Assembly: GCA_031835245.1 (NCBI GenBank)
Contig: JAVKOQ010000284.1
Coordinates: forward strand, 1 to 64,000
DNA length: 64,000 nucleotides
Source of the DNA: Balamuthia mandrillaris
Lineage: Eukaryota; Discosea; Longamoebia; Balamuthiidae
Direction: 5' to 3'
The position numbers and the translations under genes were made by a program. Every line of letters begins with the position of its first letter. Within the stretch, counting starts at the first letter, position 1. This document shows, piece after piece, positions 27,305-47,889 of this stretch. Below the pieces are notes generated by a model that saw only the letters and a program-made list of their open reading frames with translations, was not told where the DNA came from and did no database searches.

Positions 27305-28776
27305 CTACTCACTCGAAAGCAAAGGCAATGGCTCCACATTCATTGTTTCAGCCAGTTTCTTCAGCTCTTGGATGAGGTTGTTGTGCAACGCGATTCCCCT
27401 GGCGGTGTATTCCTCCTGCGTGGCCTTTTCAGGGTCACCCGCCACTAAAACTGGCTTGTCTGGCTCGCTGGGTGGAAGCTCCCTCATTTGCTGCATCAAA
27501 CCGCTCATCCTGTCTTCGAAGCCAGTATTGAACTTAGAGGGATCCACCGCCACAAAACATAATCCTGCATTGAATGGTATGAGCGGAAAGAAGAGCTGTT
27601 CGAAGAGGGAGAAAGGTACCAAGGTTGCATTGGGTGTCGCTGCTGCGCCAAATAGGGATGTTGGGGCCGTAGTTGGAGCCCGAGAGGATGCCACAAAAGA
27701 TTTCCACCATCATTGCCAGTCCATACCTTTGGTAAGATAAGTTAGAAAGCGACAGGTGAAAAGAATGAACAAAAAAGATAAAAAAAGTCCACCCTTTATA
27801 ACCCGAAGTGGACTCTTCGCCTCCAAGAGGTCTCAAACCGCCGCCCTCATCGAGAATAGTCCTAGCATCCGTGGTAGACTTGCCCTCTGCATCGCAGCCC
27901 CATCCAAACGGCACGCTGAGCCCTTGAGTTTGCTTGTATTCCACTTTACCCAAAGCCACGGCCGATGTCGCCATGTCCAACACAAATGGATCTTGTTTCG
28001 AGTTCAAACAACGGAGTCAGAGACAAATGAAAGCAGCTACAAGAACGAAAATGCGAGTAAGAGCACTTGCCTTTAGGATCTTGACTGGGAGCAGCCACTG
28101 CTATCGGATTGGTTCCAAGTGCAGCACAAGCGCTCCTCGTGGGAAAGACCGCTGGTGATGTGTTGCAATAACTCATGCCAATGAGGCCCTCCTGGGAGGC
28201 CAGCATGGCGTAGTAGCCGGCAATGCCGTAGTGGTTGCCGTTCCTGGCTACCACCCAGCCGACGCCCACTTCCTTGGCCTTGCGCATGGCCAGCTCCATG
28301 CAGAACTTGCCAATGACGGAGCCCATGCCGTTTTGCCCATCTACACAGGCTGTTGCCACCGTTTCACTGTATTTCGAGTTTGATGTGTGAGAGAGCGGGA
28401 GAGAGAGAGAAGTAGAAGAAGTAGAAGCAGAAGCAGAAGCAGAAGAAGAAGAACAACAACAAGAACAAGAGAATGGAGAAGTGGGAAGAGAGAGATGATG
28501 ATGATGAGGTAAAGCCACAAACTTGACGATCTTGGGTTCTACGTTCTTGTCAACAGTGTCAAACTTGAGTTCCATGATGTAGCTTTGCAAACGGTTGACG
28601 CCATGGCTGTGAACGCCGCGAAGGTCAGCCAGGACCAAGACCTCGGCAAAGGTCTTGGCGTGGGCAGCGGGACACCCAGCGGCCAGAGCGCAACGCTCCA
28701 CGAAGGAGCGGAGCTCGGCCGCCTCCACTCGACCGTACTGTGCCTCCTTCTGCCTCTCCGGCTGCGTTTGTTCCAT
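27305..28776 (-). CDS. Malate/L-lactate dehydrogenase family (Ldh_2 type) oxidoreductase
   Basis: NAD(P)-dependent 2-hydroxyacid dehydrogenase of the YlbC/YbiC/Ldh2 group, unrelated to classical MDH/LDH. Exons 28776-28523, 28366-28071, 27991-27793, 27726-27620 and 27564-27305 give 371 residues, close to the family's 330-360. Motifs: VLADLRGVHSHGVNRL, ATACVDGQNGMGSVIG, VGWVVARNGNHYGIAGYYA, MSYCNTSPAV, ALGTNPIAVAAPS, FVLDMATSAVA, and KGYGLAMMVEIFCGILSGS. Intron 2 can only keep phase if its donor is AAG|GCAAGTG, a GC-AG intron. The first intron holds (CT)n and TCATCATCA repeats. Substrate (malate, lactate or a sulfonated analogue) cannot be told. Divergent from a small membrane ORF on the other strand. 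Confidence 0.92.
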
Positions 28777-28888
28777 TTCTTCTTTTCTTCTTTCTATTTT
28801 TCAAACGAAAAGACCTCTTCATGGAGAAACGGGAGGGAGGCGAATGCCGTCAAAACTTGTCCAGATACAGTGAGACCAGAAAGAGGAG

Positions 28889-29372
28889 CCATGGCGCTCC
28901 TTTGTCCTCTCCCAGCAGTTGAACACAAAAAAAGAAAGTAGCAAAAACGTAGCGAAACTTTTGTTTTTCTCCTGGCTCGTCGGTACTGGAGCTCATGGTA
29001 TGCTGCGTACGGTGCGTGAGATGAACGAGCGCTCCACCCAAGAGTCGGCTACCCAAGGGTACGACTCTCCTTTTTTTTCCTTTGTTTTTTTCTTTTCCCT
29101 CGGATCTTCTGACCTATCCTGCGTTTTCGCAGCATGAAGTGCTGTTTCTCTGCTCGTTGAAGGAGGCGGTCATATTAGATGGATGAAAGAAAATCAAAGG
29201 AAGCCAGCGCGAATGCTCGCTCAAATGCAGACTTGTTCAGCTGCAGTAGGGGCCTACCTTTTCCTTTTGTCGTTGGCTTCTCCCGCGAGTAACGCTCCAT
29301 TACTGGGATCCAACATTGCTTTTTTTGGCCCGCAAAGATATCCCTACCTCTTCGTTCTCGGTTAGTTTCTGT
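28889..29372 (+). CDS. Small hypothetical membrane protein (uncertain gene)
   Basis: A frame reading KNVAKLLFFSWLVGTGAHGM, then MLRTVREMNERSTQES up to a donor at about 29057, can be joined to an acceptor at about 29144. It continues as VSLLVEGGGHIRWMKENQ and a hydrophobic stretch VGAYLFLLSLASPASNAP to a stop near 29365. The GAHG motif and membrane segments recall DUF423/TMEM256 proteins, but the match is weak. I cannot fix the start codon. Spacing between the Ldh2-type and pectate-lyase genes leaves room for one small gene. Confidence 0.35.
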
Positions 29373-29433
29373 TGATGTTTTTTTTTTAGAACAAAACAAC
29401 AAAAACTCTTCTTACCATCTGAACAGATGAGGA

Positions 29434-29598
29434 ATGGTGGTTGCCCGCTTGCGTATCTTTTACCTCCTCTTGGTCTTTCTTCTCCTATCCTTCGAGGTCT
29501 ACGTTTGGAACGACACTTCTCCGCCTTCGAATGAGTTCTCCTCCCCCTCCGCTTCCACTTCTGCCCCTTCCCTGAAAGCCTCTTCTCCTCCTCGCTCA

Positions 29599-29636
<38 letters not shown>

Positions 29637-31749
29637 GTCATCTGCTTCCTCGTCTGCTCCGTCTTCTTCTTCCCCCTCCCACACACATCGTTCTTATCCT
29701 CCTTCGGCTTTGGAGCTTCAAGAGAACTATCCTGGAAGTTGCCATCCTGACACCTTTGTGACGGTCGACAACCTCCTTCCGGGTTACACCGCCAGTGGCT
29801 ATGTTCGTACTCATCTCCCCCATCAAGCTCGCTTCGAATGGAAAGTGCATTCTGCAGCTGTTAATGCACAAGTCCACACGTTGGAATTTTGGTATTTCTT
29901 TTGGCTTTCTCAACCCGTCACTTTCTCCCTTTTGGTCAACTGGGAATCAGTCCTTTCCTTCGGAATGGAAGCCACCAATGCCTCGTGGGAGCCCGTCTCT
30001 GTCACCGCCATTTTGCGACCTGGCGTCAATAGCATCGTTCTTCAAGCCTCAAATGACCAAAGCCACGGCGAGCTCTCGCTCTTGTTCATTGACAGTCTTG
30101 TCATCTACAACCACGACCTCGACCACGACCACGACCACTACTCTCTCCCTCTTCTACGTCCTGTACATTGTCACAATAACGAAGTGGTGCCCCTTCTTAA
30201 GCCGAATCCTCGATGCTTTGCTGGAGCGACCTTTCGAGACGAGGTGGTGGATTGCGGTGGGGCTCGTGTTGGCCTCTCCTGTGACGGAGACAGAGAAGAC
30301 CAACCAGCAGTCATCACACTTTACAATGCCACATTGAAGAACCTTCGCATTGCAGCACATGGAGGCGCAGATGGCATCCATTGCAACGGTGGCAATTGTA
30401 ATCTTGACAATATCATTTGGGAGGACATCTGCGAGGATGCAGCCACTCACAATGCAGATGGAGGAATCATGACCATCAAAGGAGGATGGGCGTTCAACGG
30501 AAATGGAGGTTGGGGAGGCACTCCCGACAAGATCTTCCAACACAACGCCAAAAACAGCACAGTTGTTGTGACGGAAGGGTTCAGAGCAAAAGGACAGAAC
30601 GGAATTCTCTACAAGTCATGTGGAAACTGCAAAGACAACGGCGGACCTCGATTCGCAAGGATTGAAGATGTGATAATTGAAGAAGGAACGACCAAGAAGA
30701 TGGCTGTTGCAAACTCGAACTACGGAGATAAGGTGACAATTCGAGACTTGTTCATAAGACATCAACAGGACCACAAGGCTTGTTTTGAATTCTTCGGTAT
30801 GGAGGAAGCATTGGCGGAAGGCCATGAGATAGGGCAACAATGGAAATCGAAGGCTTGCGATGTAGCTGCGACAGACGTGAAGCGGTTGGACACCATTCAT
30901 GTGGTGGTGGCAGTGAACAAGGACTACTTGGTAGGGCTGTTAGCTTTGCTTCGTTCCATCGGTAGGAACACTCCTCACCCAGAAGCAGTTATGGTGCACG
31001 TTATTATCTCTGCCAGCGATGCTGACAACGGAGAAGAGCGTGGCGCTTCAGCCTTGGGTCAAAAGGTTCTTTGCGAAGGCTGCCCTCCAGTGGATGTGAC
31101 AAAGTTCAAGTTGAGAAGGGAGATCAAAGACAAGTTGAACAATCATTACCGAGAAGAGCTGAACGAGGACAGCAACTACGCTCGTCTGTTTTTACACCTA
31201 TTATTTCCTTCCTTGGACAGAATCATATGGTTGGATAGCGACACTTTGGCGCTAGGAGACCTTAGAGAGCTTTGGCAAACACCCATGACGGCGAAGGGTA
31301 TTGCCCTAGCTGCAGTTCCCCAATGGGATAAACCGCTAAAGAGAGAAGTCGGAAAAAGTGTGCAAATGGCATTCCAGTATCGTTACCCAGAGAGAAGATA
31401 CAACCCAAAGGAAACAACGTTCAACACGGGAGTGTTTGTGGCCGACTTGCAAAAGTGGAGGAAACGCAGAGTGGAGGAGGAGTTCTTATGGTGGATCGAG
31501 ATAAGGAACAAAAAGGAGACCTTGTGGAAGTTTGCCACTCAGCCATTGATTTGGGTGGTGTTTCATCAGCAGTGGGTGCGACTTGGAGAAGAATGGAATG
31601 TAATCGATTTAGGATGGGATAAGACCGCTGCAAGCAAACAAAAACTGAAGGCAGCAAAGGTGTTGCACTGGAACGGATCGAAGAAGCCCTGGATGGAATC
31701 AGCGTTAGCAACATATCAGAATATATGGAAACAGTATGACGCGTCATGA
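29434..31749 (+). CDS. Type II membrane protein: carbohydrate-binding-like region, PL3 pectate lyase and GT8 glycosyltransferase
   Basis: A single exon of 771 residues. A signal anchor (residues 5-25) is followed by a Ser-rich linker (30-85). Residues 95-240 look like a beta-sandwich carbohydrate-binding module of the CBM6/35 kind. Residues about 255-460 match polysaccharide lyase family 3: ADGIHCNGGNCNLDNIIWED, CEDAATHNADGG, DKIFQHNAKNSTVVVTEGF and the cysteine block KSCGNCKDNG. Residues about 485-765 match GT8: VVVAVNKDYLVGLLALLRS, FLHLLFPSLDRIIWLDSDTL (DxD metal site near 600), FNTGVFVADLQKWR and VLHWNGSKKPW. One chain therefore carries a domain that cleaves polygalacturonate and one from the family that includes galacturonosyltransferases. 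Expected location Golgi or secretory membranes. Lack of introns in 2.3 kb contrasts with most neighbours; the GT92 gene at 45523-47217 is also intronless. Confidence 0.9.
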
Positions 31750-32346
31750 AACGTAAAGAAGATTACCTGCAGAATAAAAAAAAAACATGAGCGAAAGACG
31801 GTTTTTTACTTCGGGAAAGGAAAAGACGTCGATAGTAAATGGAGTTTCAAACAATCTTTGGTTCCTTTTGCGACTCTATCGCAATCAACCTTCCACTCTC
31901 CACTACGCCGAGCCCTGGCCCTCTCACCATGCAGAGAAGCTGATAGAAGCGCGCTCCCTCCTCAGGAGCCTTTATTACACTCAATAAAGGCACCTACAGG
32001 CCTATACACATTGGCCTAACCTCAATGAACCTACGCATCTCCAGAGATGGGCAGAGAGGGTGGGTGGGCGGGATGAACCTCACCCACAAGTTGAGCCGAA
32101 CGCCAACTACGTCCGTCTAAACTTCAGAAAAACGCGCACTAAGAATAAACTTCTTAGAGCGCCCAAGAAACCACCCCTCCTCAAAATTGCGACTAGAACT
32201 CCGAAGGAGTTCCTCCAATCCATCGTCGCAATTTTACCACAACACAACAACTCCGTACTCACCCTCAAACCACCAACTAGCACAGAGTGGGCACAGGGCT
32301 CGAGCTCCGTTCGTGGAACCAACCTTCCGCAAGCAGAAGGCAAGAA
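31750..32346. mobile_element. Retroelement remnant ending directly against tRNA-Pro (copy 1)
   Basis: From about 31925 to 32346 this stretch is a diverged copy of 35072-35360. Shared strings include CAGAGAAGCTGATAGAAGC, TTTATTACACT, CTTAGAGCGCCCAAGAAAC and CCGTTCGTGGAACCA (or close variants), and both end in GCAAGAA immediately before GGCGCTG, the first bases of a tRNA-Pro gene. AATAAA-type signals are present on both strands. This is what a solo LTR or truncated element inserted at a tRNA gene would leave. The part 31750-31925 has no partner in the window and no gene. Confidence 0.6.
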
Positions 32347-32417
32347 GGCGCTGTAGTTAAGTGGTAAAATTCTCGCTTAGGGTGCGAGAGGCCCCGGTTC
32401 GATTCCGGGCAGCGCCC
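32347..32417 (+). tRNA. tRNA-Pro (AGG), copy 1
   Basis: 71 bases. Acceptor GGCGCTG pairs with CAGCGCC, the anticodon stem CTCGC/GCGAG encloses TTAGGGT (anticodon AGG), and the T-arm is CCCCGGTTCGATTCCGGG. Preceded directly by the retroelement remnant and followed by a T-rich trailer (a Pol III terminator type). Confidence 0.95.
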
Positions 32418-32475
32418 AATATTCTTTTTTGTTTATTCTTTTATTTTTTTTCCACAATTTGTTGATATGGAGAGA

Positions 32476-32992
32476 TTACTGAATACAATTTTCAACGACG
32501 ACTGTGTGGCAAGCACGAAAAGGTTTCGCTTTCTGTTGTTGTAGCCACTTGGCTTCGTCCTTTTTTTTTGTTTTTTTTCACAATTTGTTGAAAGCGGGAG
32601 GTTAGAACAATATGAATGGCGATGTTTGTGTGTGTGAGCTGTTTTGTATTCCAACTTACCTGAATGACACAAGTGAACTGGGTTTCTTGCTCATGATACG
32701 GATAGGATTGTCGAATACCTTTTTGCAACAATTATCAGTCACTGACGTGAGCTGTTCAACTTGCAAATACAAACCTGTTCTTGCTGTTGGAGCAATCCAA
32801 TGACTGGTGAGATAACCAGTGGTGGGATCTTTTTCAGCGTCGGTAACGAGTCTGTTTAAGACTTGAGCGTGATAACTCTGCCAATCCTCTTCATTCTTAT
32901 AACTACCAGCACCACCAATACCTTCATCATTCGTTTCAAATGTTAATAACGAAGGAAGCGAGAGAAAGCACTAGAAGGAGCAGAGGGTAAGG

Positions 32993-33037
<45 letters not shown>

Positions 33038-34208
33038 ACGACGAAAAGAAGAGGAGAGGAGAAGAAGAGGAAGAAGCGCAAGAAGAAGAAGAGGAGAGGA
33101 GAAGAAGGAAGAAGAAAAAGAAGAAGGAGAGGGGAGAAGAAGGAGAAGAAGAAGAGCAAGAAGAGCAAGAAGAAGAAGAGGAGAGGAGAAGAAGAGGAAG
33201 AAGAAAAAGAAGGAGGAGAAGGAGAAGGAGAAGAAGAGGAAGAAGAGGATGAAGAAGAAGAAGAAGAAGAAGAAGAACAAGAAGAAGAAGAAGAAGAAGG
33301 AGAACAAGAACAAGAACAAGAACAAGAACAAAGACGCGAATAAACCTGGACATTCTTTGGTCAATGCTCGTATAATTGCTCGGTCATGGTACTTGTGGTA
33401 CCATACTGTCCACACTTCTGACCAACCTTTCGTGGATTTGCAATGAAATAAAGGAGTTAAGAAAGAATGGAAAAGAACAGCCACACCGAAACACGAAGCG
33501 AGAAGGACAAAGCAATAACATGAGAGGATATGAACAAAAAAAAGCGACAGAGAGAATGAACAAGAGACATATACCTTCATAGTGAATCAGAAACAAGTTC
33601 TCGCCAAGACGAGCATGCACTCGTGCAACCGACCAAAACTCGTACGTGTCTTTCACTTCAAAGACCATGCCTACCTGCGGCCATCGATACAGCTTTCTGT
33701 AGACATCGACCCACGTTACTTTCTTTTCCTTCCGTTCGTAACGTAGTCGCTTCTCTGTGTTGCTATAGCCCCATAACAAGGCTATGGAATCTGGGAACAG
33801 CTCTGAAAGGAGAATAAAAAAGAGCATGACAAAACGAACGGATGTATAATGAAGAAAGAAAGAACGCGAAAGAAAGGAAGAGAGTAATCGAAAAGACAAA
33901 GAGAGCGGAAACACACGCAGCCTAGGGAGAACATGAGGCCGCCAAACGGGAGCAGAGAGAGCCCATCGCCGAAATGAGGAATTGACGCCGGCCAACATGA
34001 CCAAGTCCTTCACCGACAAAAAAGGTGTCAACAGGCGAACAATGTTCTCGGTGACGACCGGGTGAAGCGCCAGCGACACCTCCATCTCGAGAGGATAAGC
34101 GTCCTCCACGTTGTTTTCTTCGCGCAAGCTTAACAGGAACTCAGTGAAGGCCACCAGGCCTTCATTCCCCAGAGCAACTTCCTCTCGTTTCTCTTTACTG
34201 CAGTACAT
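32476..34208 (-). CDS. F-box-like protein with a Tudor/MBT/chromo-type barrel
   Basis: Exons 34208-33917, 33802-33575, 33426-33346, 32921-32775, 32718-32660 and probably 32547-32476 give 292 residues. An F-box-like segment lies near residue 60 (ENIVRLLTPFLSVKDLVMLAGV, then SSFRRWA). Residues about 150-210 form a small barrel: VGMVFEVKDTYEFWSVARV, LFLIHYEGWSEVWTVW, the pattern of Tudor-knot/MBT/chromo-barrel proteins in which aromatic residues read methylated peptides. Exon 4 is not assigned. The last exon is the least certain, since an alternative acceptor gives a different tail. Intron 3 (33345-32922) contains GA and GAAGAA repeats. If right, the protein would couple recognition of a modified partner to SCF ubiquitination. 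Confidence 0.7.
32995..33325. repeat. GA and GAAGAA low-complexity tract in an intron
   Basis: A perfect GA run at about 32995-33034 followed by roughly 290 bases of GAAGAA/GAGGAA purine repeat. It lies inside the intron of the F-box/barrel gene, where on the coding strand it is a giant polypyrimidine tract. The Leu/Ser/Phe-rich frames over it are artefacts. Confidence 0.92.
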
Positions 34209-34363
34209 TTGTTGTTGTTTTCAATTTCTCTTTCTCTTTTGAACTCTTCTTACGCAAGCATTCCGAGCTTCAAAAAAAAAGGTTTCTTTGAAGAAAAAGT
34301 GAACCGAAAGAAAGCACTGAAAAAATGGAACAAAAGAAGCGCTAAAAACCAAAAAAGAATGTT

Positions 34364-34434
34364 GGGCGCTGCCCGGAATCGAACCGGGGCCTCTCGCACC
34401 CTAAGCGAGAATTTTACCACTTAACTACAGCGCC
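34364..34434 (-). tRNA. tRNA-Pro (AGG), copy 2
   Basis: 71 bases, same sequence class as copy 1, opposite orientation. Its 5' flank is AACCAA, shared with five other copies; the trailer CAACATTC followed by T6 is nearly that of the copies at 32347 and 44844. Confidence 0.95.
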
Positions 34435-35071
34435 TTGGTTGGTTTGAAAGGGGGTCGACTAGTCTTGTCGAATGGATTCGAAAAGGCTTTTGCTGTCGAC
34501 ACAGACCATCGTTTGCTCTTTCTCCTGCAAACATCCTGCCGAGGAACTTTCCCGAGCCTTGACCTTACGAAACCAAGAAGTCACTCTCCAATCTCGAGCC
34601 TCTTTCCTTCCTTGGTTCCCTTCTAAACTTTAAATACTTTCCCCTCAACAAGAACAAGAAAAAAGAAGGCACAAAAAGCAACAACAACACCAAACACTTG
34701 TTTTTGGATCACTTTACGTCTCCTGAGTACGAATCCAAGCTTCAGGATGAGTACCACAGTTTCAAGGCCAAACCTGGTGAGACCGTTCGAGCTATTGATG
34801 ATCGTCTTCGTTCCCTCCGTGACCAGATGGTGAACAAGCCGTCTACTCCCGCGTTGCTACACAAGTTTCGGTCGGCCCTTCCAAAGGACATTGGAGCAGG
34901 CACACGGATTTTGTCAAAGGAAGAGTCATCGTTGTTGGCATCGAGCTGAAAAAGAGCATCAGCTTGAGTTCGTTGATGGCTCGATTGTATTCCTCATAAG
35001 AACGGATGAAGCGATCAACTTCGCCCTGGCAATCGAAAGCGACCTTCGAGATCCTGATCAGGCGACTCTCA
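34435..35071. mobile_element. Nested retrotransposon fragments with gag-like frames on both strands
   Basis: On the + strand, 34698-34949 reads FTSPEYESKLQDEYHSFKAK, ETVRAIDDRLRSLRDQM and LHKFRSALP. This resembles the capsid part of LTR-retrotransposon gag. It stops at 34949. On the - strand, 35097-34843 reads KVAFDCQGEVDRFIRSYEEY, another gag-like stretch beginning just inside the tRNA-flanking repeat. The two fragments face each other and neither continues into protease or reverse transcriptase, so they are remnants. Two GTCGAC sites occur near 34455 and 34495. Confidence 0.55.
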
Positions 35072-35360
35072 CTACACAGAGAAGCTGATAGAAGCAAGCT
35101 TTATTACACTTTCTGTGGAAGGGCAGGAAGAACCTCACCTACAACAAATGCCAACGTCATACATCTACAATTCAGAAAACAAAAAATAAACCTCTTAGAG
35201 CGCCCAAGAAACTACCCTTCCTCCAACATTGCAACAAGCACTACGAAGGAGATGCTCCAATGCAATGCAATTTACTCGCCGCACCAACTAAAGAGCACAG
35301 AGAGGCGCAGGGCTCGGGCCCCGCTCGTGGAACCAGCCGCCAGACAACTGGTAGCAAGAA
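35072..35360. mobile_element. Retroelement remnant ending directly against tRNA-Pro (copy 2)
   Basis: Diverged copy of 31925-32346, shortened by deletions, again ending in GCAAGAA at the first base of a tRNA-Pro gene. On the - strand it leads into the gag-like frame starting at 35097, the expected order LTR then gag. On that reading it contains AATAAAGC near its inner end, a possible polyadenylation signal. Confidence 0.6.
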
Positions 35361-35431
35361 GGCGCTGTAGTTAAGTGGTAAAATTCCTGCTTTGGGTGCA
35401 GGAGGCCCCGGTTCGATTCCGGGCAGCGCCC
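35361..35431 (+). tRNA. tRNA-Pro (TGG), copy 3
   Basis: 71 bases. Anticodon stem CCTGC/GCAGG around TTTGGGT gives anticodon TGG. The rest matches the AGG copies, so the isoacceptor probably arose by changes limited to the anticodon arm. Preceded directly by the retroelement remnant. Confidence 0.95.
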
Positions 35432-35822
35432 AACTTTATATTTTTTATAAAATGACAAAAACCAAAATGAAAAATGGATAACGGTACTGTGTCCGTGCCC
35501 TTCCTTTGATTTCCTTCACGTGTAATTTGCAGCATCACTCTTGTGTACGAGACCACCCACAAGGGTAGGCCGATGCTTTGGAGAGCATTCAGACAGCGCT
35601 TCCCTGAGCGGTTCTTTATTCAGCCCGCCTTACACTGCGCTGCTGCGTCACCGAGGGTTCTTCAGAAATTCGGGTGGATGGTCATCCGATCAGGGAGAAT
35701 TTTGGGGTAGATCAATTGGAAACCGACAGATCAGAATTTTGGAAGGGGGTAGAGCAGGCTTTTTGTTTGTTTTTTTGAATGTTCGTGCAGCGCAGAAAAG
35801 TTTGGCAAAAAAGAAAAAGGTT

Positions 35823-35893
35823 GGGCGCTGCCCGGAATCGAACCGGGGCCTCCTGCACCCAAAGCAGGAATTTTACCACTTAACTACAGCGCC
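35823..35893 (-). tRNA. tRNA-Pro (TGG), copy 4
   Basis: 71 bases, anticodon TGG. The 3' trailer is CAACCTTTTTC. The stretch between this and copy 3 has open frames but nothing recognisable. Confidence 0.95.
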
Positions 35894-36449
35894 TTTCGTT
35901 GTCAAACAAGGGTGTAGCTTTGGCATCAAATGCAATCATCTCCTTACTCTGTTGTGCAAGCTCTTTAACTTGGATAACGGAAAAGAATTATTTTCCTCCA
36001 TCTTTGCTCAGCTTGCAAGAAGCCAGAGCTCAGGCGCATGGCCGGACGCTGTCTGGGCTGTTCCGTAAGACTAAAAAGGTGACTAACAGTGTTCGGTGGT
36101 TCTCCTGCTTCTCCTTTCTTGGCATGGCGTTCTTTCTCCTCTGTCTCTTTCGTTTGGTTGTTTCTTATTGTTGCAATGAAATTATAGATAGGGAAAATAA
36201 TTTATTTGGAAGCATATGGTTAGTGTTCACTACCGTGTCCTTTAGCACATTACCTGTACACACGCCGAACAACTGGAGCATTGACTATTCAAAATGGGCG
36301 ACAGAGTGCTTTTGATGAGGTGTAAGTATTCGAAACAACCGAAAGGATTAAAGCAACTGCAATGCAAAACAGAAACAAAGAAACCAAAAGGAGGTATGTG
36401 TGGCTAAAAAATACAATGCTTCCAGCAAGTTGAAACAAAAATTTAATTT
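35894..36449. other. Gene-free spacer between tRNA-Pro genes
   Basis: A frame at 35899-36315 includes one hydrophobic segment (WFSCFSFLGMAFFLLCLFRL), but it has no domain I know, lies in a tRNA/retroelement landscape and shows no splice context. I do not call it a gene. Confidence 0.4.
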
Positions 36450-36520
36450 GGGCGCTGCCCGGAATCGAACCGGGGCCTCCTGCACCCAAAGCAGGAATTT
36501 TACCACTTAACTACAGCGCC
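36450..36520 (-). tRNA. tRNA-Pro (TGG), copy 5
   Basis: 71 bases, anticodon TGG, 5' flank AACCAA, trailer AAATTAAATTTTTG. Confidence 0.95.
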
Positions 36521-36893
36521 TTGGTTGACATCTTGTCAAACAATAATACAGAACGTGTGCGAACCTAAAAAACCTATGACAAGAGACTCGCTGCTCAGCG
36601 ACCCCACCATTCCTGACTTGCTCGTGCTTCTTCCATTTTGTTCCGCTGGACGTTCGCTCATACCTTACAACCAAGACAGGCGAAGTGATTCCAATTATAG
36701 GTTGGTGACCTGCTGAAACAAAAAATTCCAATTGTTTCAAACTGTTGTATGGTTTCTGACAACTGGCGCGAAGGAACTGATTTTGCGATGCGTTGGGGGA
36801 GCGTTTGTGTTGTTCCGTCGCAACTTGAGGAAGAAGAGAGACTATCCAAAAAAATAGAGGAGGTAGCACGGGCAAAAATGAAAAAGTAAAGTT
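36521..36893. other. Spacer, nothing recognised
   Basis: Between two tRNA-Pro genes in the same orientation. No ORF with a known domain and no repeat shared with the rest of the window was seen. Confidence 0.4.
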
Positions 36894-36964
36894 GGGCGCT
36901 GCCCGGAATCGAACCGGGGCCTCTCGCACCCTAAGCGAGAATTTTACCACTTAACTACAGCGCC
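36894..36964 (-). tRNA. tRNA-Pro (AGG), copy 6
   Basis: 71 bases, anticodon AGG, 5' flank AACCAA, trailer CAACTTTACTTTTTC. It lies 133 bases upstream of the TatD start. Confidence 0.95.
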
Positions 36965-37097
36965 TTGGTTGACCTATTCTATACTTTTTCCAACGATGCG
37001 CTGATAAAATCAACTCATCCAAACTTATCTTTTCCAAAACGAATTCCAGCGCCGCAGCTTTCCCCTGTTACCGAGAGAGTTGGCACTGCTGGGTGAC

Positions 37098-38816
37098 ATG
37101 GAGAACCCCGGTAACACCACGAACACCACCAACAGCAGCAACGCCAATACTCGCCCAGGCAAAGCGCGCAACTCTCGTGTCAAACAACAACAGCAAAGCA
37201 AAAAGCAGCAGCAGCAGGCCGCCGCGAAGTCGCCTGCTGGAAAAAAACCACCGGCTGCCACTTACACCGCTTCGGGACCCTCTCTGCCCCAACGAGACCT
37301 GCGAGCCACAGAGGCGCTGTCCTTCTTCGACTCCCACTGCCACCTGGATCTCATATTGGAGAGAGAAGGCGCTCAGACGGCCTCGCAAGTGATTGAACGC
37401 TTTGAGGGCTTCTACGAACAAAATTTCTCGGATGAGGCTGTAGATCGGGTGAACGCTTCCCTCGATCCCACTTGTTCTCTGCCGTTCCACTTCCACTTTG
37501 ATGGGTGCCTCCAAGTTTGTTGCTTCCTTTCTGGGTACAAGGTTTGTTGTTACACTTGCTTACTTTTTGTTTCAAGAGAGGGAGAGAAGAGAAGAGAAAA
37601 GAAGAGAAGAGAAGAGAACGACGAAGAGAAGAGAACGACGAAGAGAAGAGAACGACGAAGAGAAGAGAACGACGAAGAGAAGAAAGAAGAGAAGAGAAGA
37701 GAACGACGAAGAGAAGAGAACGACGAAGAGAAGAGAACGACGAAGAGAAGAGAACGACGAAGAGAAGAGAAGAGAAGAGAAGAGAAGAGAAGAGAAGAGA
37801 AGAGAAGAGAAGAGAAGAGAAGAGAAGAGAAGAGAAGAGAAGAGAACGACGAAGAGAAGAGAAGAGAACGACGAAGAGAAGAGAACGACGAAGAGAAGAG
37901 AACGACGAAGAGAAGAGAGAGGAAGAATGAAAGCAGCGAAACAACCATAAAACTAACTTATGTTTCCCAAATACAAAAAAGGTGACAAAACAAATGGTAG
38001 AAAGCAAACCCAATGTTTGGGCTACATATGGCATTCATCCTCACCAAGCCAGTGACTACACGGATGAGCTGGAAGACGAGATCTGCCAGCTGATGGCCCA
38101 TCCAAAGACGGTGGCTTGGGGCGAAATGGGACTGGACTACTTCAAGAACATGTCCCCAGCGGAAGTGCAACGCGCGGTTTTTGAGAAACAGCTGAAGAGA
38201 GCGGTTTCTTTGGGCAAGCCCTTGGTCATACATACCAGAGAAGCTGATGAGGTTAGTTTCATGCTTGCTCTCGTTTTCTGCTTTACTTTGGGTCTCCTGT
38301 CCTTTCGTCCTCTTGTTCCCTTGTTCTCTTGTTCCCCACTTCTGCTACTCTGCTTCTCTATTTCTAAAAAAAAAGCAAACACAAGGATACTTTGCGCATC
38401 ATGAAAGAGAACGTTCCTCCAGAAACAAAGATCCACATGCATTGCTTTGGTTCAGGTTGGGAAATGGCTGAAGCGTTAATGGCTCACTTTCCAAGCCTGT
38501 GGTTTGGCTTCACCGGCGTTATCACTTTTGGCAGCGCCCAACAATCTCGAGATGTTGTCAAACAATTACCACTTGATCGGTTGCTGTTAGAGACGGATTC
38601 TCCTTTGTTCGTATCCTTCCTTCATTTCTTGTCGTTTCTCTTTCTAACCCATCCTATTGAAAACCTTTTAGCATGGCTCCTGTTCCGCACAGAGGAAAGA
38701 CCGGCCATCCAGGAATGATCCCATTGGTGGCAGCCAAGATCGCCGAAGTCAAACAAGAAACGATTGAGACTGTTGTTCGTGTTACAAGGGAGAACACACA
38801 TAAAATGTATGGCATC

Positions 38817-38819
<3 letters not shown>
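37098..38819 (+). CDS. TatD-family metal-dependent deoxyribonuclease
   Basis: Exons 37098-37541, 37982-38251, 38386-38606 and 38672-38819 give 360 residues. All metal ligand motifs of TatD hydrolases are present: FFDSHCHLD (HxH), TYGIHPHQA, VAWGEMGLDY, VIHTRE, HMHCFGSG and LLLETDSP followed by a MAPVPHRGK stretch. TatD nucleases act on DNA 3' ends in repair and apoptosis-like DNA decay. The N-terminus has about 70 extra Gln/Lys/Ala/Asn-rich residues. Intron 1 is mostly a GAAGA-type microsatellite. The donor of intron 3 (TT|GTTCGT) was chosen because it restores SPF-MAPVPHRGK. A second T/C tract and acceptor follow the stop, but the stop at 38817-38819 is in frame and gives a normal C-terminus. 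Confidence 0.93.
37575..37921. repeat. Complex GAAGA / GAACGAC minisatellite in TatD intron 1
   Basis: About 350 bases built from GAGAA and GAACGACGAA units in higher-order blocks. All six frames stay open for long stretches because the repeat lacks stops; these Arg/Glu-rich and Leu/Ser-rich frames are not genes. Confidence 0.93.

Positions 38820-38821
<2 letters not shown>

Positions 38822-38862
<41 letters not shown>
38822..38862. repeat. CT microsatellite after the TatD stop
   Basis: About 20 copies of CT beginning three bases after the TatD stop codon, followed by CTTAG, which imitates an intron end. It is probably in the 3' untranslated region. Confidence 0.9.
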
Positions 38863-38955
38863 TCTTAGTGATCCAGATGCCCTCGTTTCTGTTCTGAAAA
38901 ACGAGTAAACAGAAAAATTTTTTGTTTTTATAATTTTTCGATTTTGAATAACCAA

Positions 38956-39026
38956 GGCGCTGTAGTTAAGTGGTAAAATTCTCGCTTAGGGTGCGAGAGG
39001 CCCCGGTTCGATTCCGGGCAGCGCCC
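38956..39026 (+). tRNA. tRNA-Pro (AGG), copy 7
   Basis: 71 bases, anticodon AGG, 5' flank AACCAA, T-rich trailer. It forms a close tandem pair with copy 8 (86 bases between them). Confidence 0.95.
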
Positions 39027-39112
39027 AAACTTTTCTTTTTCATTTTTTTTCCAGCTTTCTTTCGATCGCCCAACTTTTCCTGCAGCGACCCTCTGTACTG
39101 TCTTCTTGCTCA

Positions 39113-39183
39113 GGCGCTGTAGTTAAGTGGTAAAATTCTCGCTTAGGGTGCGAGAGGCCCCGGTTCGATTCCGGGCAGCGCCC
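39113..39183 (+). tRNA. tRNA-Pro (AGG), copy 8
   Basis: 71 bases, anticodon AGG, identical in sequence class to copy 7. Its 5' flank (GCTCA) differs from the other copies; the trailer has ten T residues. Confidence 0.95.
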
Positions 39184-39302
39184 AACCTTTTTTTTTTGTT
39201 TTATGATCTCGTTGACATTTTTGGCGTTTGTGATTTTTTTTGAATATTTGAATTTATTTTACCACAAAAATATATCAAAACAGAAAACTAAGAGCTCTGC
39301 CG

Positions 39303-42300
39303 ATGATGACGGAAGAAGCTTACCAGCGGAACCTCTCCTCTCCGCAGAGCGACCATGCAAGGGGCGATCAGGAGGACGAGGAGGAGGAAGAGCGCTTCGA
39401 TTGGATCGCCATCTTCCGGGAAGCACTCAACACATTAAGTTGGTTTTTTATTTTCATTTTTTTTTATTTTTTATCTCCTCCAACGTTTCTAATCGTTCGT
39501 TCTTATTTTCAGAAGAAGCCACATATGAAAAAGAAATAGGAGGAGAGGAAGAAGACCTTGGAACGAGCTTCGTGGAGGACCTAGAAATGGTGTATGCCTG
39601 CGTTGAGGAGAGAGAGCGAGACCTGCAAATGGCCTCCGAGTTGGGGCAGATGCTCCTCCAAAAGAACCAAGAGCTGGAGGAACAGCTGCAGCAGCTCGAC
39701 TTTGACTGGCGGAACAAAGTGGAGGCCTTGCAGATGGACGCCGCTCAAACGGAACGTTATCGGGAGGAAGAGCAGAGGCTTACCGCGGTTGTTGCAGATC
39801 TCCGGAAGGTTTGTTATTCTTTTGTTTTTTCCATTTTGACTTTCTCTCTTTTTTTGTTGTTCACTTTTTGCTTTCCTCTTTGTTCCTTTCTCTCGTTGGT
39901 TACATCATTAGCGGAATGATGAACTGCGAACAGAGAACCAAGGCCTGTTGGAAGCACAAGCGCAAATGAACAAAGAAGAGACTTCTCTGCGGCGCAAACT
40001 TAAACAGGTGAAGGACAAGTCTTTGCGACGACATTCCCGTCAATTCGAAGAGGAGGTGGAAACGTACAAGGAAGAGCTGGAGGAGAAGAAAGCCGCTTTT
40101 GCATTGTTAAAAAAAGAAAACTCTTCTTTGCAACACCAATTAGGTACCTTTCATTCGCTCTATTCCTTCCTGTTTGCTCTGCTTTCTCTCTCTCTCTCTC
40201 TCAGCCTCTTCTTTGTAGTTCTTGTTTTACCTGTTCATAACACAAGCCCACTTCAGAAACTCTGAGTTCTGAAATGAAACGAGGGCAACATCTTCAAGAA
40301 CAGGTACAACAACTTCAAGACGCTATGCGTCAGCTGGAAGTAAACAAACGCAACAAACAACATATTTTAAAGCAACAACTGTTCTCGGTATCTTCCTCTG
40401 ATCTTTTTTTTTTGTAGTCTTTGCTTCTTCTCTTGTTCTCTTTTATCTTCTTTCTTTTCCAGCTAATGTTTCTCTTTTTGTTACTTTGCATAGTTACAAG
40501 AAGAAAACCAACTGTTGAGAGCCTCAGCGGAGGAAAAAGAGGCACATCTTCAACAGCTTTTGCTGCAGTTAGAGAGAGAAAAAGAGGAATACCAAAAACA
40601 CATTCAGGAAAACGAACAAAGCCTTCTTCTTGAATTGGATAACTCTCTTCTTGACCCACAAATAGAGGAAAAACGAGCAGGCGATGATGAAGAGGATGAC
40701 AAACAACAAAGTGAAGGAGTGGTATTATATGAGGAGCTTAAAGAAAGCGAAAGCAGAGCAACGGAGCAAGTAAACGAAAAAGAGAAAGAACGAAGAGAAG
40801 GAAGGGAGTTAATGTTACGCCGAACGTTGGATATGTGGCTCGAACGAAAAAAAATTGGAAACAACATTGTAAATGAAAGACAAAGGGAAGAAAGGGCACA
40901 GGAGGGAGACCACAACGAAGTGGAAGAACTTTTGAGAGTATTGGATGAATACTTTACGAAAGCACTTACAGCAAACCATAACCAAAGCAACGTGAACGTC
41001 GACAAAACAGCTGCACACAACCAAACACACGTCCCAACAGTAATACCAACAACGCGTCACCATTCTCTCACCAGCAACAATAACAACGAACAAGAGCAAC
41101 AAAACAAAACAAATAACAGCTTTACTCTCAACACACAGAAACGGCTCGAACATTTTCTCACTCCACAACCCAAAAAAACAAAGATGTCTTCAACAGCCAG
41201 CAACGCAGAATCAAAGGATGATGGCAGCGGAAGTGCTCGTCGACGACGTCTCGTTCGTTCCACATCCTCCTATTCTCGTACTCCTGCTCCTTCTTCTTCT
41301 TCTCTTTCTGCTTCTTCTTCAGCTACTGCGGCATCTCCATTTGATGTTTTCAGGAAGATCGCAAGAATGGAGCATTACGTGCTCTCAACAACACCTCAAC
41401 GAAAGTATCAACGCTTACATCCGCGAGTTCAAGCACTATTCCAACATCAACACCAACATTTGATGAAGAAGAAAGAAGGTGAGGAGAAGAAAAAGGAGCT
41501 AGAAAGCAGCAGAGGAGAAGACGAGGAGGTCGGAGAGGGATTACCGGTAATACCTTCATTCTATGCTTCCGCTTCGGCCATACCTGCTTATCGCTCTCCT
41601 TCTTACCCTTCTGCTTTTACTCCTTCATCCACTTCTCCGTTTTGGTCGTCTGCCTCTTCTCGCTCTTCTGCACCTGATGCTTCTCCGTTTTCAACACCAC
41701 TCCCCCTTTCTTCTCTTGTACAACCAAAGCGAAGAAAGAGCAAGAAAAGAGAAAAGAGCAGAAAGAAGAAAGGAACAGTTCTTCCATTCGTTGTTGAAAG
41801 TGAAGAAGAAGATAAGGACAAGGAAAAAGAAACGGGGAAAGCAACGGAAACAGAACAGGGCGAAGAAAGAACCGCGCCTTCAACATTAAACCGCGAAGAA
41901 CAGGAAGAAGATGGAATGAAGGACAGACCAAAGACGAAACGGAAGAAACGTAAAGATATGAAAGACAAGAACTGGTACCATTCGTTGACTCCCTTTGAGC
42001 TGTACAAACAAGAGAGCAACAAAGAGACCTCAAGGCAAGAGCTAATCGACAAGCAAAAGACAAGCAGCAGCAAAAAGAAGAAGAGAGCGAAGCAAAAAGA
42101 ACAAACAAAACAAACAAATGAAGAAAGTAATACAAGATTAGAGCTTTCTTCTCCCGACGATGATGGGGCGGTATTGGAGGCGCTTCAACGTGAAGTTGTT
42201 GAAGTTTGGAAGAGATGGAAGGAAGAAGAAAAGGAACAAAGACGAGAGCTACAAACAATCGAACCGCAGCAACTGCTCCTGACTCTCTTGACAACGGAAC

Positions 42301-42644
42301 AGCAAGGCAAAGGAAAGGGAGATGGCAAGCAAGAAGCGACGAAGCTTCCACGTATAACGGAAGAAGAACGAGAGGGAGGAAAAGACGAGAGTTCCCAACA
42401 ACTCGCGGTAAATAATAAGATAGAACGAGAACGAAGCATAGAAGCCTTGCTAGAGAAAGAAGGAATACGGCCAGAGAAGAAACGGTATCAGTTTATTCAA
42501 TTCGTGGTGATGTTATTGTTGCTGTTCTTTCTGTTGACGTCGTTTGTGCACCGGAGCTTCTCTTCCTTTTTCATATTTCTTCAAAGCAAGTTCCAACGAG
42601 GTCATCGCCCTCTGCCTTCCAACTCTTCTTCATCTTCTTCTTAA
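39303..42644 (+). CDS. Tail-anchored coiled-coil protein with CDR2/BICDR-like CC1 box (putative dynein adaptor)
   Basis: Exons 39303-39438, 39513-39808, 39912-40143, 40257-40387 and 40494-42644 give 981 residues. Residues 45-265 are continuous coiled coil. Near residue 84 is ASELGQMLLQKNQELEEQL, close to the CC1 box (AAELGxxLLxRNxELE) by which CDR2, BICDR, BICD, TRAK and Spindly contact the dynein light intermediate chain. A long Ser/Glu/Lys-rich middle follows. The C-terminus has a hydrophobic segment of about 20 residues (QFVVMLLLLFFLLTSFV, near residue 932) and a short Ser-rich end, typical of a tail anchor. The likely role is to link an organelle membrane to dynein; this is inferred from the motif only. 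The stop lies 18 bases from that of the convergent cysteine-rich gene. Confidence 0.82.
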
Positions 42645-42662
42645 CAACTTGTTCTGCTCTCT

Positions 42663-43897
42663 TTACATCCATCCAAACAAAGAATGGAAAAGCGCACTTA
42701 CGTTCCCACTCTCCTCCATCTCTTGTTGTTGTTGGTTGTTTTTGTCTCCCATAACTGCTTCCACGTCTGTACAAACTCTCTCTCCGCGCACAAAGTACTC
42801 CCTGTTGCATCCTCCACAATAGTTGGACTTGCATTCAGCGTACTGCGAGATAGGGCACTGCTCCACGGGAGGAGGCAAGGAGCAAGGATCCACCAGGCAG
42901 TTGACCGGTTGAGAGCCATCCGGACACAGCACGTTATCATCGGAGCTGCTGCTTCCACCATGTCCATCTTCATCTCCATCGCAGGAGGAGGTGCAAACCT
43001 GCTTGCCATCGATGAAGTAGTCCCTGTTGCACCCTCCGCAGTAGTTTGCCACGCACTTGGCCTCAGCTGCCTCAGGACAGTCCGAGGGAGGCGGCAAGGA
43101 ACAAGGATCTACCAGGCAGTTCACCGGGGCAGAGCCGTCGGGGCAGAGCCCCAGGTTGGGATCGTCACAGACCTCCATGCCATGGCTGATGTAGTTCCTG
43201 AAGCATCCTCCGCAGTAGTTGGGCACACACTCAGCGTATTTGGCCAAGGGACAGTCCTCAGGAGGAGGGTTGGAGCAAGGGTTGATCAGGCAGTTAACGG
43301 GCTCCGAGCCATCAGGACAAAGGCCCCTCTCGTTGCAGACCTGGGTCTTGCCGATAAAGTATCTTCGGTTGCAGCCTCCACAATAGTCTGCCCTGCACTC
43401 GGCGTATTGGGCCAGGGGGCAGTCCTCAGGAGGAGGGTTGGAGCAAGGGTCCACTAGGCAGTTGACGGGCTCAGAGCCATCCGGGCAGATGGCCGGTCGG
43501 CGCGCGCTGAGGGTGCTGCCAGCTGCCTGGGGTTCCTCGCAGACCAGCTCGCCGTCCCGGTAGTAGTGACGGAAGCAGCCGCCGCAGTAGTCGGGCTTGC
43601 ACTCGGCGTAGCGGGCCTCGGGGCAGTCCTCCGGAGGAGCAACGTCGCAGGGGTTGATGAAGCATTGAACGGGGAAGGAGCCGTCCGGGCAGAGCTCAGG
43701 AGGCTTTCCCATTTGTTGCATCCGCATGTAAGGGCATGCCCCAAGGGCTAGTGTTTTGGCCAAAAGAGCTGGTGAGTTGTTGTTTGCACAAGAACCACTG
43801 GAAAAACGAGAAGAAGAACCCGCCTAGGGAGGGAGCACAGTGTACCTAGTAAAGGAAGGGAAACACAAACACAAAAGAGGACGAGTGTTCTCGACAT
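42663..43897 (-). CDS. Secreted protein with five tandem cysteine-rich repeats
   Basis: Exons 43897-43839 and 43797-42663 give 397 residues. The first exon encodes a signal peptide (MSRTLVLFCVCVSLPLL), joined by a very short intron of 41 bases. The mature chain has five repeats of about 60 residues with the pattern CPDGS-PVNCLVDPCS, then PPPEDCP, YAEC, YCGGC and a closing VC after a YF-G segment. Each repeat has nine or ten cysteines in fixed spacing, implying disulfide-stabilised extracellular domains. Repeats differ mostly in linker length; one linker is Asp/Ser/Gly-rich. I recognise no named family. Possible roles are surface adhesion, protease inhibition or cyst wall. The signal exon is inferred: without it the frame starts at a TTG. 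Confidence 0.83.
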
Positions 43898-44189
43898 CTT
43901 TTCGTTGGGGTTCAGGGTGTGTTTGGTGGAGGTTTTACGCGTTAAACGTTACTTTCTTTTCTGTTACCAACAAAACACAAGAAAGGAGAGATATTTGTTT
44001 TGCCTTCTCTGTTTGGGCAGGCAGTTTCTGTTTATATATTGTATTACTTACCAACTAGGAATAAGGCTGTCGTAGCGCAACGGGGCTCCCCCCCTTAACC
44101 TCACTGCAAAAGGGACGAAATTTCCTTTCTGCTCCGCCCGATTCTTGCTTTTGGCCGCTGCTTTTCCCCACATTTTCCCTGTAATGCCA
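43898..44189. other. Intergenic, nothing recognised
   Basis: Upstream region of the secreted cysteine-rich gene. No other ORF, tRNA or repeat is apparent. Confidence 0.4.
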
Positions 44190-44843
44190 TCCAATAAACA
44201 TTCAGACATTATTGACACCAAAACTATTTATCTTATCTCTTTTGATTCAGGCACAGTATCAGGACGACACGACATTCCACGTCATTAAGGATAAGGCCCT
44301 TCGCTCAACAAAACGCAGGAGAAGGAACGGTAACAATAAGAGGCAGCAAGAGGTTGTTTTTACGCGGGTTTCTCTGCTGAAATCAGTCTCTCCACCGATA
44401 CTCAGCCTGGGAGAGCGCGGCCTCAGTTCGAAGGCGGTTGTTCTCAGCCACGAGCGGATCCAAACGGTCGAACATTGTTTCCGCCCACAAGGGGACAGAC
44501 TCCTCCGCCATCTCTGCATCCGGCTCCTCGAACTGGACAGCCGAGTCTTGTACCATGGGCAGCAGTCCTCCTTTTCATCGGCCGCACTCTTTCCTTTCCG
44601 TTGTCCTTACCCACAGATGTAGGCTGAGGAGCAGCGCCCATGGGCGATTGGGATGATGGGGGCAAAACAACTCCACCAGCAGAACCGGAACGAGCGGCCT
44701 CATCGCTAGGAACCACGCGATGAATAGCTTCACCAGCTCTCTTAGCCGCCATCAAACCTCTTCTTTCCACTAAGTAGCGCATAGAAGGCACGGCGCTCAA
44801 TCTCCGTTCGTGGATCCAACCTTTCATAGTTAAAAGGCAAGAA
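44190..44843 (-). mobile_element. Retroelement remnant with gag-like reading frame abutting tRNA-Pro (copy 3)
   Basis: The right end shares GCTCAATCTCCGTTCGTGGA-type sequence and the final GGCAAGAA with the remnants at 32346 and 35360, again touching a tRNA-Pro gene. On the - strand 44827-44444 is open (RYLVERRGLMAAKRAGEAI), and another frame encodes WAETMFDRLDPLVAENNRL, a coiled segment like the start of some gag proteins. There is no reverse transcriptase. Boundaries on the left are not defined. Confidence 0.5.
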
Positions 44844-44914
44844 GGCGCTGTAGTTAAGTGGTAAAATTCTCGCTTAGGGTGCGAGAGGCCCCGGTTCGAT
44901 TCCGGGCAGCGCCC
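44844..44914 (+). tRNA. tRNA-Pro (AGG), copy 9
   Basis: 71 bases, anticodon AGG. Preceded directly by the third retroelement remnant; its trailer CAACATTC matches that of copy 2. Confidence 0.95.
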
Positions 44915-45180
44915 AACATTCTTTATTGCGTTTTTTCATTCTTTTTTTCATTTATTGCTAACACGGAAAATCTTGCAAAAAAAATTAGCAATAGTTGAGA
45001 AAAAAGTTGACATTTGAAAAAATAGTTGGATTTTCTCAAGAAATATTGAAATTGTATGATAGAAAAGTTGAAAACGCACAAGCAACCACACCAGAAAATT
45101 TAAAATTCTTGCAATTGGAGTTGTGTTTTCTCTCAAAAACAAAGGGGAAAGACCCAGTGAATGAAGCTACAAAAAAATAA

Positions 45181-45238
<58 letters not shown>

Positions 45239-45383
45239 GGAGGAGGAGAAGGAAGAAAAAGCAGAAGCAGAAGAAAGAGAAGGAGAATAAAAGTGATGTC
45301 AGTGACTACCCCGATTGTTGAGCTTTCACTGACCTCTCCTGAAGAGGCACTTGCAATAGAGAGAGAGAGAGAGAGTGAAAACG
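44915..45383. repeat. A/T-rich spacer with AAAG microsatellite
   Basis: Contains a perfect AAAG run at about 45184-45237 and a small inverted repeat ATTGCTAA/TTAGCAAT near 44955-44992. Open frames here are short and biased by the repeats. Confidence 0.7.
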
Positions 45384-45552
45384 CTTAAAGATGAGGTAGA
45401 GCAACAGCGAAGGGCATTAATAGATGTTCAGAATACCTTTGATGCAGCAAAAAGAAAGTGCACCGCATTAGAGCACTACACAAGCAGTAAGAAAAGGGAT
45501 AGCAAAACAGAAGATACAATTTTTATCTCTCATTGGGAACAAGGCGCATGAG
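45384..45552 (+). pseudogene. Possible fragment of a coiled-coil gene
   Basis: A frame reads KTLKDEVEQQRRALIDVQNT and AAKRKCTALEHYT, good heptads with natural-looking composition, but it starts in a GA repeat without an ATG and ends inside the 3' end of the GT92 gene. Most likely an exon left from a lost or moved gene. Confidence 0.35.
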
Positions 45553-47217: not shown

Positions 47218-47446
47218 TTACCCGCAATTATCCATAACAAAACACGACGTCGTTAATTATGAAGGAATATGATAATTAAAAGTTAATTAATTAAGTGGGA
47301 AGTTGCTCAAAAAGGTAAAAAAATAGAGAAAATTTTGATTGTTGATTGGTTAGATCTTGTTATAACGCCGGGACCCTCGTGTCGGGTAATTCACTTGTAG
47401 AATTTTTCTCACGCACAAAAAAGGGGAAGAAGCACAAAAATATTTT

Positions 47447-47517
47447 GGGCGCCGCCCGGAATCGAACCGGGGCCTCTCGCACCCGAAGCGAGAATTTTAC
47501 CACTTAACTACGGCGCC
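47447..47517 (-). tRNA. tRNA-Pro (CGG), copy 10
   Basis: 71 bases. The anticodon stem CTCGC/GCGAG encloses TTCGGGT, anticodon CGG. The acceptor stem is GGCGCCG/CGGCGCC, a compensated change from the other copies (GGCGCTG/CAGCGCC), which shows it is under structural selection. 5' flank AACCAA. Confidence 0.94.
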
Positions 47518-47683
47518 TTGGTTACTGTTTCGTGACGTATTTTTTAAAAGATAAAACTTTTTGTATCAGGTCTTCAACTCGAAAAAAAAAATCTGCTGCC
47601 TACTAATCGTTACAGTGGCAGGAATACAATCAAAAAGAACAACGATGTCCTATCTGAGTGGGCCATGACTACAATAATAAAAT

Positions 47684-47787
47684 GGGCTACGTTGATCAGC
47701 TGGACTCACTTTGCACCCAGGACCACCGTTTGCGCAATTGGGAATTCCTTCTGGGTGCAACTTGAGTCCAGCTGATTAACGTAGCCC
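47684..47787. repeat. Long imperfect inverted repeat (hairpin)
   Basis: The left arm starts GGGCTACGTTGATCAGCTGG and the right arm, read on the other strand, starts GGGCTACGTTAATCAGCTGG. The arms are about 37 bases with only a few mismatches around a loop of about 30 bases. No ORF lies within it. It is consistent with a MITE-like element or a structured non-coding RNA. Confidence 0.8.
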
Positions 47788-47808
47788 TTGGTGGCTTGAA
47801 GCCACCAA
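47788..47808. repeat. Short perfect hairpin following the large one
   Basis: TTGGTGGC, TTGAA, GCCACCAA: an 8-base perfect stem placed exactly after the end of the 104-base inverted repeat. Confidence 0.75.
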
Positions 47809-47889
47809 TTCTTTGGGATTTTTGCACAAATTCATTTTTTGTTTAGCTTTCCTATTGTCCTTGTTTTATGCCCAAAACAAAGACGCAGG

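Follow-up and report, generated by a model that had tools for sequence, protein, structure and literature searches.

A single gene of the amoeba Balamuthia mandrillaris joins a pectate lyase domain of family PL3 to a glycosyltransferase domain of family GT8 in one continuous reading frame. The gene lies in the window that we analysed, the first 64,000 nucleotides of contig JAVKOQ010000284.1 (forward strand; assembly GCA_031835245.1), where its frame is open for 771 codons as a complete, intronless coding sequence (771 aa and a stop). The fusion is real, and its lyase part has probably been put to a different purpose, because the residues with which a PL3 enzyme grips its substrate have changed.

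Results

Domain layout

Both families score far over their Pfam cut-offs within the one frame: PF03211 (Pectate_lyase, PL3) reaches 138.2 bits over aa 270-457 (cut-off 25) and PF01501 (GT8) 147.5 bits over aa 489-755 (cut-off 24.3). The initial annotation had described a single uninterrupted frame that unites the two in one protein; the frame is as described, and the union is strongly supported by the two profiles together with the nine same-frame copies reported below. The layout is as follows.

29434-31749 (+): whole coding sequence, with anchor, stem, CBM35-like, PL3 and GT8 parts (open frame, Pfam, copies)
29434-29508 (+): putative type II signal anchor, a basic N-terminus and hydrophobic stretch (Kyte-Doolittle scan)
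29509-29703 (+): Ser/Pro-rich stem, of varying length among copies (sequence)
29704-30123 (+): CBM35-like beta-sandwich, aa 91-230 (sequence and fold matches)
30187-30888 (+): beta-helix of family PL3 (aa 252-485), nearest to Pel3 and PelI among solved structures
30883-31746 (+): GT8 glycosyltransferase domain
31234-31242 (+): DSD motif (Asp601-Ser-Asp603), in 9/9 intact copies
31663-31692 (+): LHWNGxxKPW motif, in 9/9 intact copies

The CBM35, PL3 and GT8 folds were each matched from the predicted structure, the parallel beta-helix of the PL3 part matching solved PL3 structures. What had been called a carbohydrate-binding-like beta-sandwich proved to be CBM35-like, with matches to PDB 2w3j by sequence (E 5.6e-5) and to the CBM35 fold by predicted structure (Foldseek, E 1.6e-6). 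All eight bacterial relatives compared carry a GLP motif in this domain (GLPN in six, GLPH and GLPD in the others), and the Asn of GLPN may be read, after the portion of PMC9843283 that describes it, as a binding-site asparagine. At the place of the bacterial GLPN, the nine Balamuthia copies have SLLF, SGFL or STLL, and GLP is lost in every one.

The N-terminus of each of the nine intact copies is strongly hydrophobic over one stretch, with basic residues ahead of that stretch or within it. Of the signal anchor claimed at the outset, the hydrophobic N-terminus therefore stands, while its role as a type II anchor leading into the Ser/Pro stem is our interpretation. A second window above the threshold, at about aa 483-488 where GT8 starts, appears in three of the nine (the window, C642 and C81) and would be buried inside the GT8 fold. 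The absence of introns also held, all nine intact copies being open without them; two NCBI protein models have differing ends, the C-terminus of P0002 and the N-terminus of P0004 departing from the genome frame.

A family of fusion genes

Our search covered the genome assembly (64.8 Mb in 775 contigs), and the copy counts are lower bounds. PL3 sequences occur in at least ten places: on C283 (the window), C642, C81 and C732, at three places on C585 and at three on C68. A GT8 domain lies downstream in 10/10, in the same frame in nine and frameshifted inside GT8 in one (C68:48.6k), and the nine continuous-frame copies are spread over six contigs. C497 and the beginning of C732 also carry shorter matches to the GT8 end. 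Since C642 and the window run colinear over window positions 28467-34472 (88-96%, except for about 580 bases), and since the clusters on C585 and C68 mirror one another in order and strand, these two pairs are probably haplotypes of the same loci, from which we estimate about six genes per haploid set.

That the single protein is a misreading, whether of two separate genes, of a frameshift or of a join in the assembly, is an explanation to which we give next to no credence. It draws on P0014, the NCBI protein model at C642, which begins within PL3 and was assigned GT8 only; against it, the same continuous frame recurs in nine copies on six contigs, and NCBI itself models three full-length Balamuthia mandrillaris fusions, each named "Pectate lyase" (P0002-P0004). 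We rejected it on the nine copies, and the join or frameshift at the domain boundary against which the initial annotation had warned is ruled out by the nine same-frame places among the ten.

Several features of the surrounding sequence may be recorded here. The approximately 580 bases at 31764-32344 are missing from the same place on C642, and a sequence 96% identical to 31884-32335 lies next to a C68 copy that resembles the window gene at only 74% in its coding region; for these reasons the segment has the look of a repeat that is mobile or dispersed. A short repeat (about 75-110 bases, 90-98% identity) is scattered over the window, once at 32345-32440 and at ten sites from 34346 to 48085. 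The neighbouring gene at 27949-28800 (-) encodes a malate/L-lactate dehydrogenase (Ldh_2); its match falls into two stretches that flank low-complexity sequence, where an intron has probably been read through.

Selection on the two halves

We estimated dN/dS for ten copy pairs, three of them between two deep clades and seven within clades. Between clades (dS 1.04-1.32) the ratio was 0.19-0.20 for PL3 and 0.19-0.21 for GT8, compared with 0.21-0.34 for CBM35, 0.36-0.58 for the stem and 0.46-0.48 for the junction (aa 460-488); the stem had the highest dN of the regions in all three pairs. Both enzyme halves have thus been under purifying selection since the clades split, and ratios near 0.2 in both across so deep a division indicate that the fusion is old and has been retained. 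Within clades the values ranged over 0.14-0.48 for PL3, 0.11-0.39 for GT8 and 0.06-1.15 for the short junction, and with such wide ranges and a dS that is mostly low in these domains, recent constraint is measured less sharply. The copies on C585, C68 and C732 are near-identical over PL3-GT8 and divergent at their N-termini, which suggests gene conversion among them.

The GT8 half

The motifs WLDSDT, N[TA]GVF and LHWNGxxKPW are intact in all nine intact copies, which confirms the full GT8 motif set with its DxD site as first reported; we take DSD to be the GT-A metal site and LHWNGxxKPW to be a GT8 motif. The best outside match found, in a word-limited search, was a GLT8D1-like protein of a chiton (P0015; 30% identity over 98%, 112 bits), and the other GT8 frames of Balamuthia, read unspliced, score at most 53 bits. 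Among the sequences compared, a set to which plant GAUT proteins do not belong, the GT8 half appears closest to GLT8D1-like proteins.

The PL3 active site

In Pel3, Lys227 is the catalytic base and Lys252 and Arg255 bind substrate, according to an excerpt of PMC7949064, and for the calcium-site roles of the PL3 acids we follow part of PMC10992409. The equivalent positions were fixed by the adjoining SCGxC cysteines.

30370-30372 (+): Asp313, calcium-site acid, kept in 9/9 intact copies and 37/37 bacterial rows
30433-30438 (+): Glu334-Asp335, calcium-site acids, kept in 9/9 intact copies
30529-30531 (+): Lys366, at the position of Pel3 Lys227 (catalytic base), kept in 9/9 intact copies
30604-30606 (+): Ile391, where Pel3 has Lys252; Ile in 7/10 copies, Ala in 3/10
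30613-30615 (+): Lys394, where Pel3 has Arg255; Arg in 4/10 copies, Lys in 3/10, Met in 3/10

The frameshifted copy (C68:48.6k), too, has equivalents of Asp313, Glu334, Asp335 and Lys366 in its PL3 domain. The "full PL3 motif set" of the initial annotation was therefore wrong: the base Lys and three calcium acids are kept, and the Lys252 equivalent is lost in 10/10 copies and the Arg255 equivalent in 6/10. Bacterial sequences with the SCGxC motif (45 rows) have the Lys252 equivalent in 43 and the Arg255 equivalent in all 45; the two that do without the lysine are from actinobacteria, so its loss may not abolish activity. These are 45 of 53 bacterial rows read, the eight without SCGxC not being counted; six of those eight carry Lys and Arg, and the other two are L101 and L103.

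To set these changes against the whole domain, we used 37 of 51 BLAST-matched bacterial sequences, leaving out those with less than 44% identity or no more than 200 columns. Seventy columns are conserved in at least 95% of the 37 rows, of which 62 show no change in any of the nine intact Balamuthia copies and eight differ in at least one. The alterations fall on three of five conserved basic columns versus five of the 65 others (one-sided Fisher p 0.009), and eight of nine acidic columns are unaltered, the ninth being Glu468, which is Gln in 9/9 copies. The bacterial loci had been found by peptide patterns containing Lys366 and Glu334, so that conservation at those two positions is partly built in; Lys391, Arg394 and Lys465 lay outside the patterns. 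The nine copies include haplotype pairs, and the residue losses are therefore not nine independent events. By descent the domain belongs to PL3, and its function as a pectate lyase is putative.

Origin of the CBM35-PL3 half

The PL3 part is at most 55% identical to bacterial PL3s, and the nearest bacterial proteins, seven in number (P0005-P0011), have the order CBM35-PL3 found here at 44-47% identity. In a PL3 tree of 46 rows (midpoint root, bootstrap not settled), the nine Balamuthia rows and eight bacterial CBM35-PL3 rows form a group with support 100/96, the eight bacterial rows being sister to Balamuthia (85/81), and this group is separate from the ricin-type lectin-domain rows and the Pel3/PelI rows. 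Close species and identical rows (P0012/L057, P0013/L059) were left unthinned in the tree. We infer that the CBM35-PL3 unit was acquired from a gammaproteobacterium by horizontal transfer; the donor was perhaps one of the Cellvibrionaceae, to which one of the eight bacterial rows (L055) belongs. The suggestion, made when the gene was first noticed, that parts of it had come by transfer is in this way supported for the lyase half by shared architecture and by the tree. The PelI equivalog NF041898 scores 247.3 bits, below its cut-off of 620.

A viral origin of the lyase half was considered and rejected on a scan of viral contigs, where none of 48 pattern stretches was a relative, which is weak evidence. 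Among plasmids, 33 records match some part of the query and none covers 80% of it in one place; the best ten of the 33 match PL3 or GT8, and among the matches listed one record (H4) extends from PL3 to about 37 residues beyond the start of the GT8 profile at 28.5% identity. The coding strand itself changes from pyrimidine-rich (28-42% purine) at 29434-30273 to purine-rich (52-66%) at 30274-31749, a shift present in four of four copies checked and weaker in C732. As it falls near the start of PL3 rather than at the PL3/GT8 boundary, it marks no GT8 join.

Uronate supply and other pectin genes

A supply of UDP-glucuronate is likely in this organism, given a UDP-glucose-dehydrogenase match on C57 (118.7 bits) and a dehydrogenase-like gene on two further contigs, C314 at 3909-6660 (-) (L124) and C51 at 3993-6762 (-) (L125). 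The latter gene has nucleotide-sugar dehydrogenase central and UDP-binding domains in frame with an NAD-dependent sugar epimerase, making it a second carbohydrate-enzyme fusion, and it adjoins a DUF2961 gene. The epimerase candidates of the genome match UDP-glucose 4-epimerases and other sugar epimerases, and a proven UDP-glucuronate 4-epimerase was not found among them. PL1 (PF00544) has no match in the genome at E 0.001. The polygalacturonase family GH28 is found at two places (C514:8692-9513 and C253:63712-64557), probably two haplotypes of one gene.

Occurrence of the architecture

A protein search with the GT8 alignment returned 15 proteins, four of them from Balamuthia and the remainder with GT8-type Pfam domains only. 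No PL3-GT8 architecture outside Balamuthia appeared among the limited number of candidates that share five-residue words and were scored, which is weak as a sign of absence; the fusion, for which the initial annotation knew of no described counterpart, was thus found only in Balamuthia by these word-limited protein searches. Searches of the open-licence literature found no paper on a PL3-GT8 protein, which is weak evidence of novelty. "Balamuthia" and "pectate lyase" occur together in none of the open-licence papers searched, and the papers combining "pectate lyase", "glycosyltransferase family 8" and "fusion" deal with plants, to judge by their titles. The main text of a trophozoite transcriptome paper contains "lyase" and "glycosyl" zero times (PMC8569187).

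Discussion

We favour, with a confidence a little short of even, the reading that this protein is a GT8 transferase with a captured CBM35-PL3 arm that holds the acceptor, its cleavage weak or lost. It would be a glycosyltransferase with type II membrane topology, resident in the secretory pathway and presumably in the Golgi, and its lumenal arm would be the bacterial CBM35-PL3 unit, taken in whole by horizontal transfer. The C-terminal GT8 would do the main chemistry, a retaining sugar transfer that uses a UDP-sugar donor and a divalent metal. The PL3 part, which has kept its fold, calcium acids and base Lys and has lost basic residues that grip galacturonate, would most likely bind an acceptor glycan or glycoprotein and hold it in position for GT8. 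Cleavage of pectate would be weak or absent, at least where residue 394 is Met. Against this acceptor arm, the presence of Lys366 and the three calcium acids in every copy examined exceeds what a scaffold needs, Arg394 is retained in four of ten copies and conservatively Lys in three, and the CBM35 domain has lost its GLP motif.

The retention of base and calcium acids in the copies examined also keeps two readings viable in which the PL3 half still cuts. In one, to which we would assign a minor but serious share of belief, GT8 makes a uronic-acid glycan with alpha linkages, which PL3 then cleaves by beta-elimination; the cleavage would set the chain length, and the unsaturated ends it produces could not be elongated at O4. 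Besides the retained residues, PL3 is conserved between clades as much as GT8, the genome holds UDP-glucose dehydrogenase and sugar-epimerase matches, and the stereochemistry of an alpha-1,4 lyase fits that of a retaining GT8; yet the Lys252 equivalent is lost throughout and the Arg255 equivalent changed in six of ten copies, and UDP-galacturonate would have to be supplied without a proven epimerase among the genome's candidates. A working range of pH 8 to 9.5 lies above the usual pH of the Golgi, which also counts against such a cutting synthase. That is the range of the three PL3 enzymes tabulated in PMC10992409, although, to judge by a title cited there, a low pH optimum is known for one PL3 enzyme. 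In its narrower form, initially proposed as an active lyase trimming polygalacturonate made by a galacturonosyltransferase, the idea is not established: the PL3 substrate residues are lost, and the nearest GT8 found is GLT8D1-like, not a named galacturonosyltransferase. In the other, which we consider rather unlikely, PL3 is a lyase whose target is now a uronic-acid glycan of lower charge or different linkage. The concentration of losses in basic residues (three of five versus five of 65) while base and calcium acids stay would fit this, as would paralogues that differ at exactly positions 391 and 394, as divergence in substrate would have them do; but the switched lyase is without a candidate substrate, and relaxed constraint yields the same pattern.

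It is quite improbable, in our judgement, that the CBM35-PL3 half is an inert stem for the folding and spacing of GT8. The lost PL3 binding residues and GLP motif would suit a stem, whereas a constraint on PL3 equal to that on GT8 between clades, and 62 of 70 bacterial-conserved columns unchanged in nine copies, would not. A bolder and unlikely proposal, though one we keep in view, is a single-chain synthase-lyase, in which GT8 would make an acidic glycan of the surface or cyst wall and the bacterial lyase, retuned by the loss of basic residues, would cut or cap the product of its own chain; if true, it would to our knowledge be without precedent as a eukaryotic PL-GT chimera that has both activities.

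Two carbohydrate-active families have here been joined in one eukaryotic chain, seen only in Balamuthia within our word-limited searches. The protein suggests a route by which a secreted bacterial degradative enzyme can enter a eukaryotic glycosyltransferase of the secretory pathway, and it points to possible uronic-acid chemistry at the Balamuthia surface or cyst wall. It also raises a testable question, namely whether the acidic glycans of amoebae are built with a captured lyase as handle or as cutter.

Among known systems, LARGE1 and WbbM likewise place a GT8-like domain within a larger enzyme and match the GT8 fold, and the WbbM structure entry is titled bifunctional; in both, the partner domain is a second glycosyltransferase, not a lyase. 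The chiton GLT8D1-like protein matches the Balamuthia GT8 along the full length of the domain (30% identity) and shares the LHWNGxxKPW and NTGVF motifs with it, but is without the CBM35 and PL3 domains of the fusion. Human GLT8D1 is described in a section of PMC10709319 as a UDP-dependent galactosyltransferase of low measured activity. On the lyase side, PelI (Dickeya) and Pel3 (Pectobacterium), secreted via type II secretion (excerpt of PMC7949064), are Fn3-PL3 proteins with Fn3 where the Balamuthia protein has CBM35, and unlike the Balamuthia copies they have the substrate-binding Lys252 and Arg255 intact. Closest in layout are the bacterial CBM35-PL3 proteins (P0005-P0011, and L055 of the Cellvibrionaceae), probably lipoproteins to judge from their N-termini, in which CBM35 precedes PL3 as it does here; they retain the active-site Lys and Arg, in contrast to the Balamuthia copies (Arg retained in 4/10), and they end after PL3 without a GT8, whereas the Balamuthia protein continues into its glycosyltransferase.
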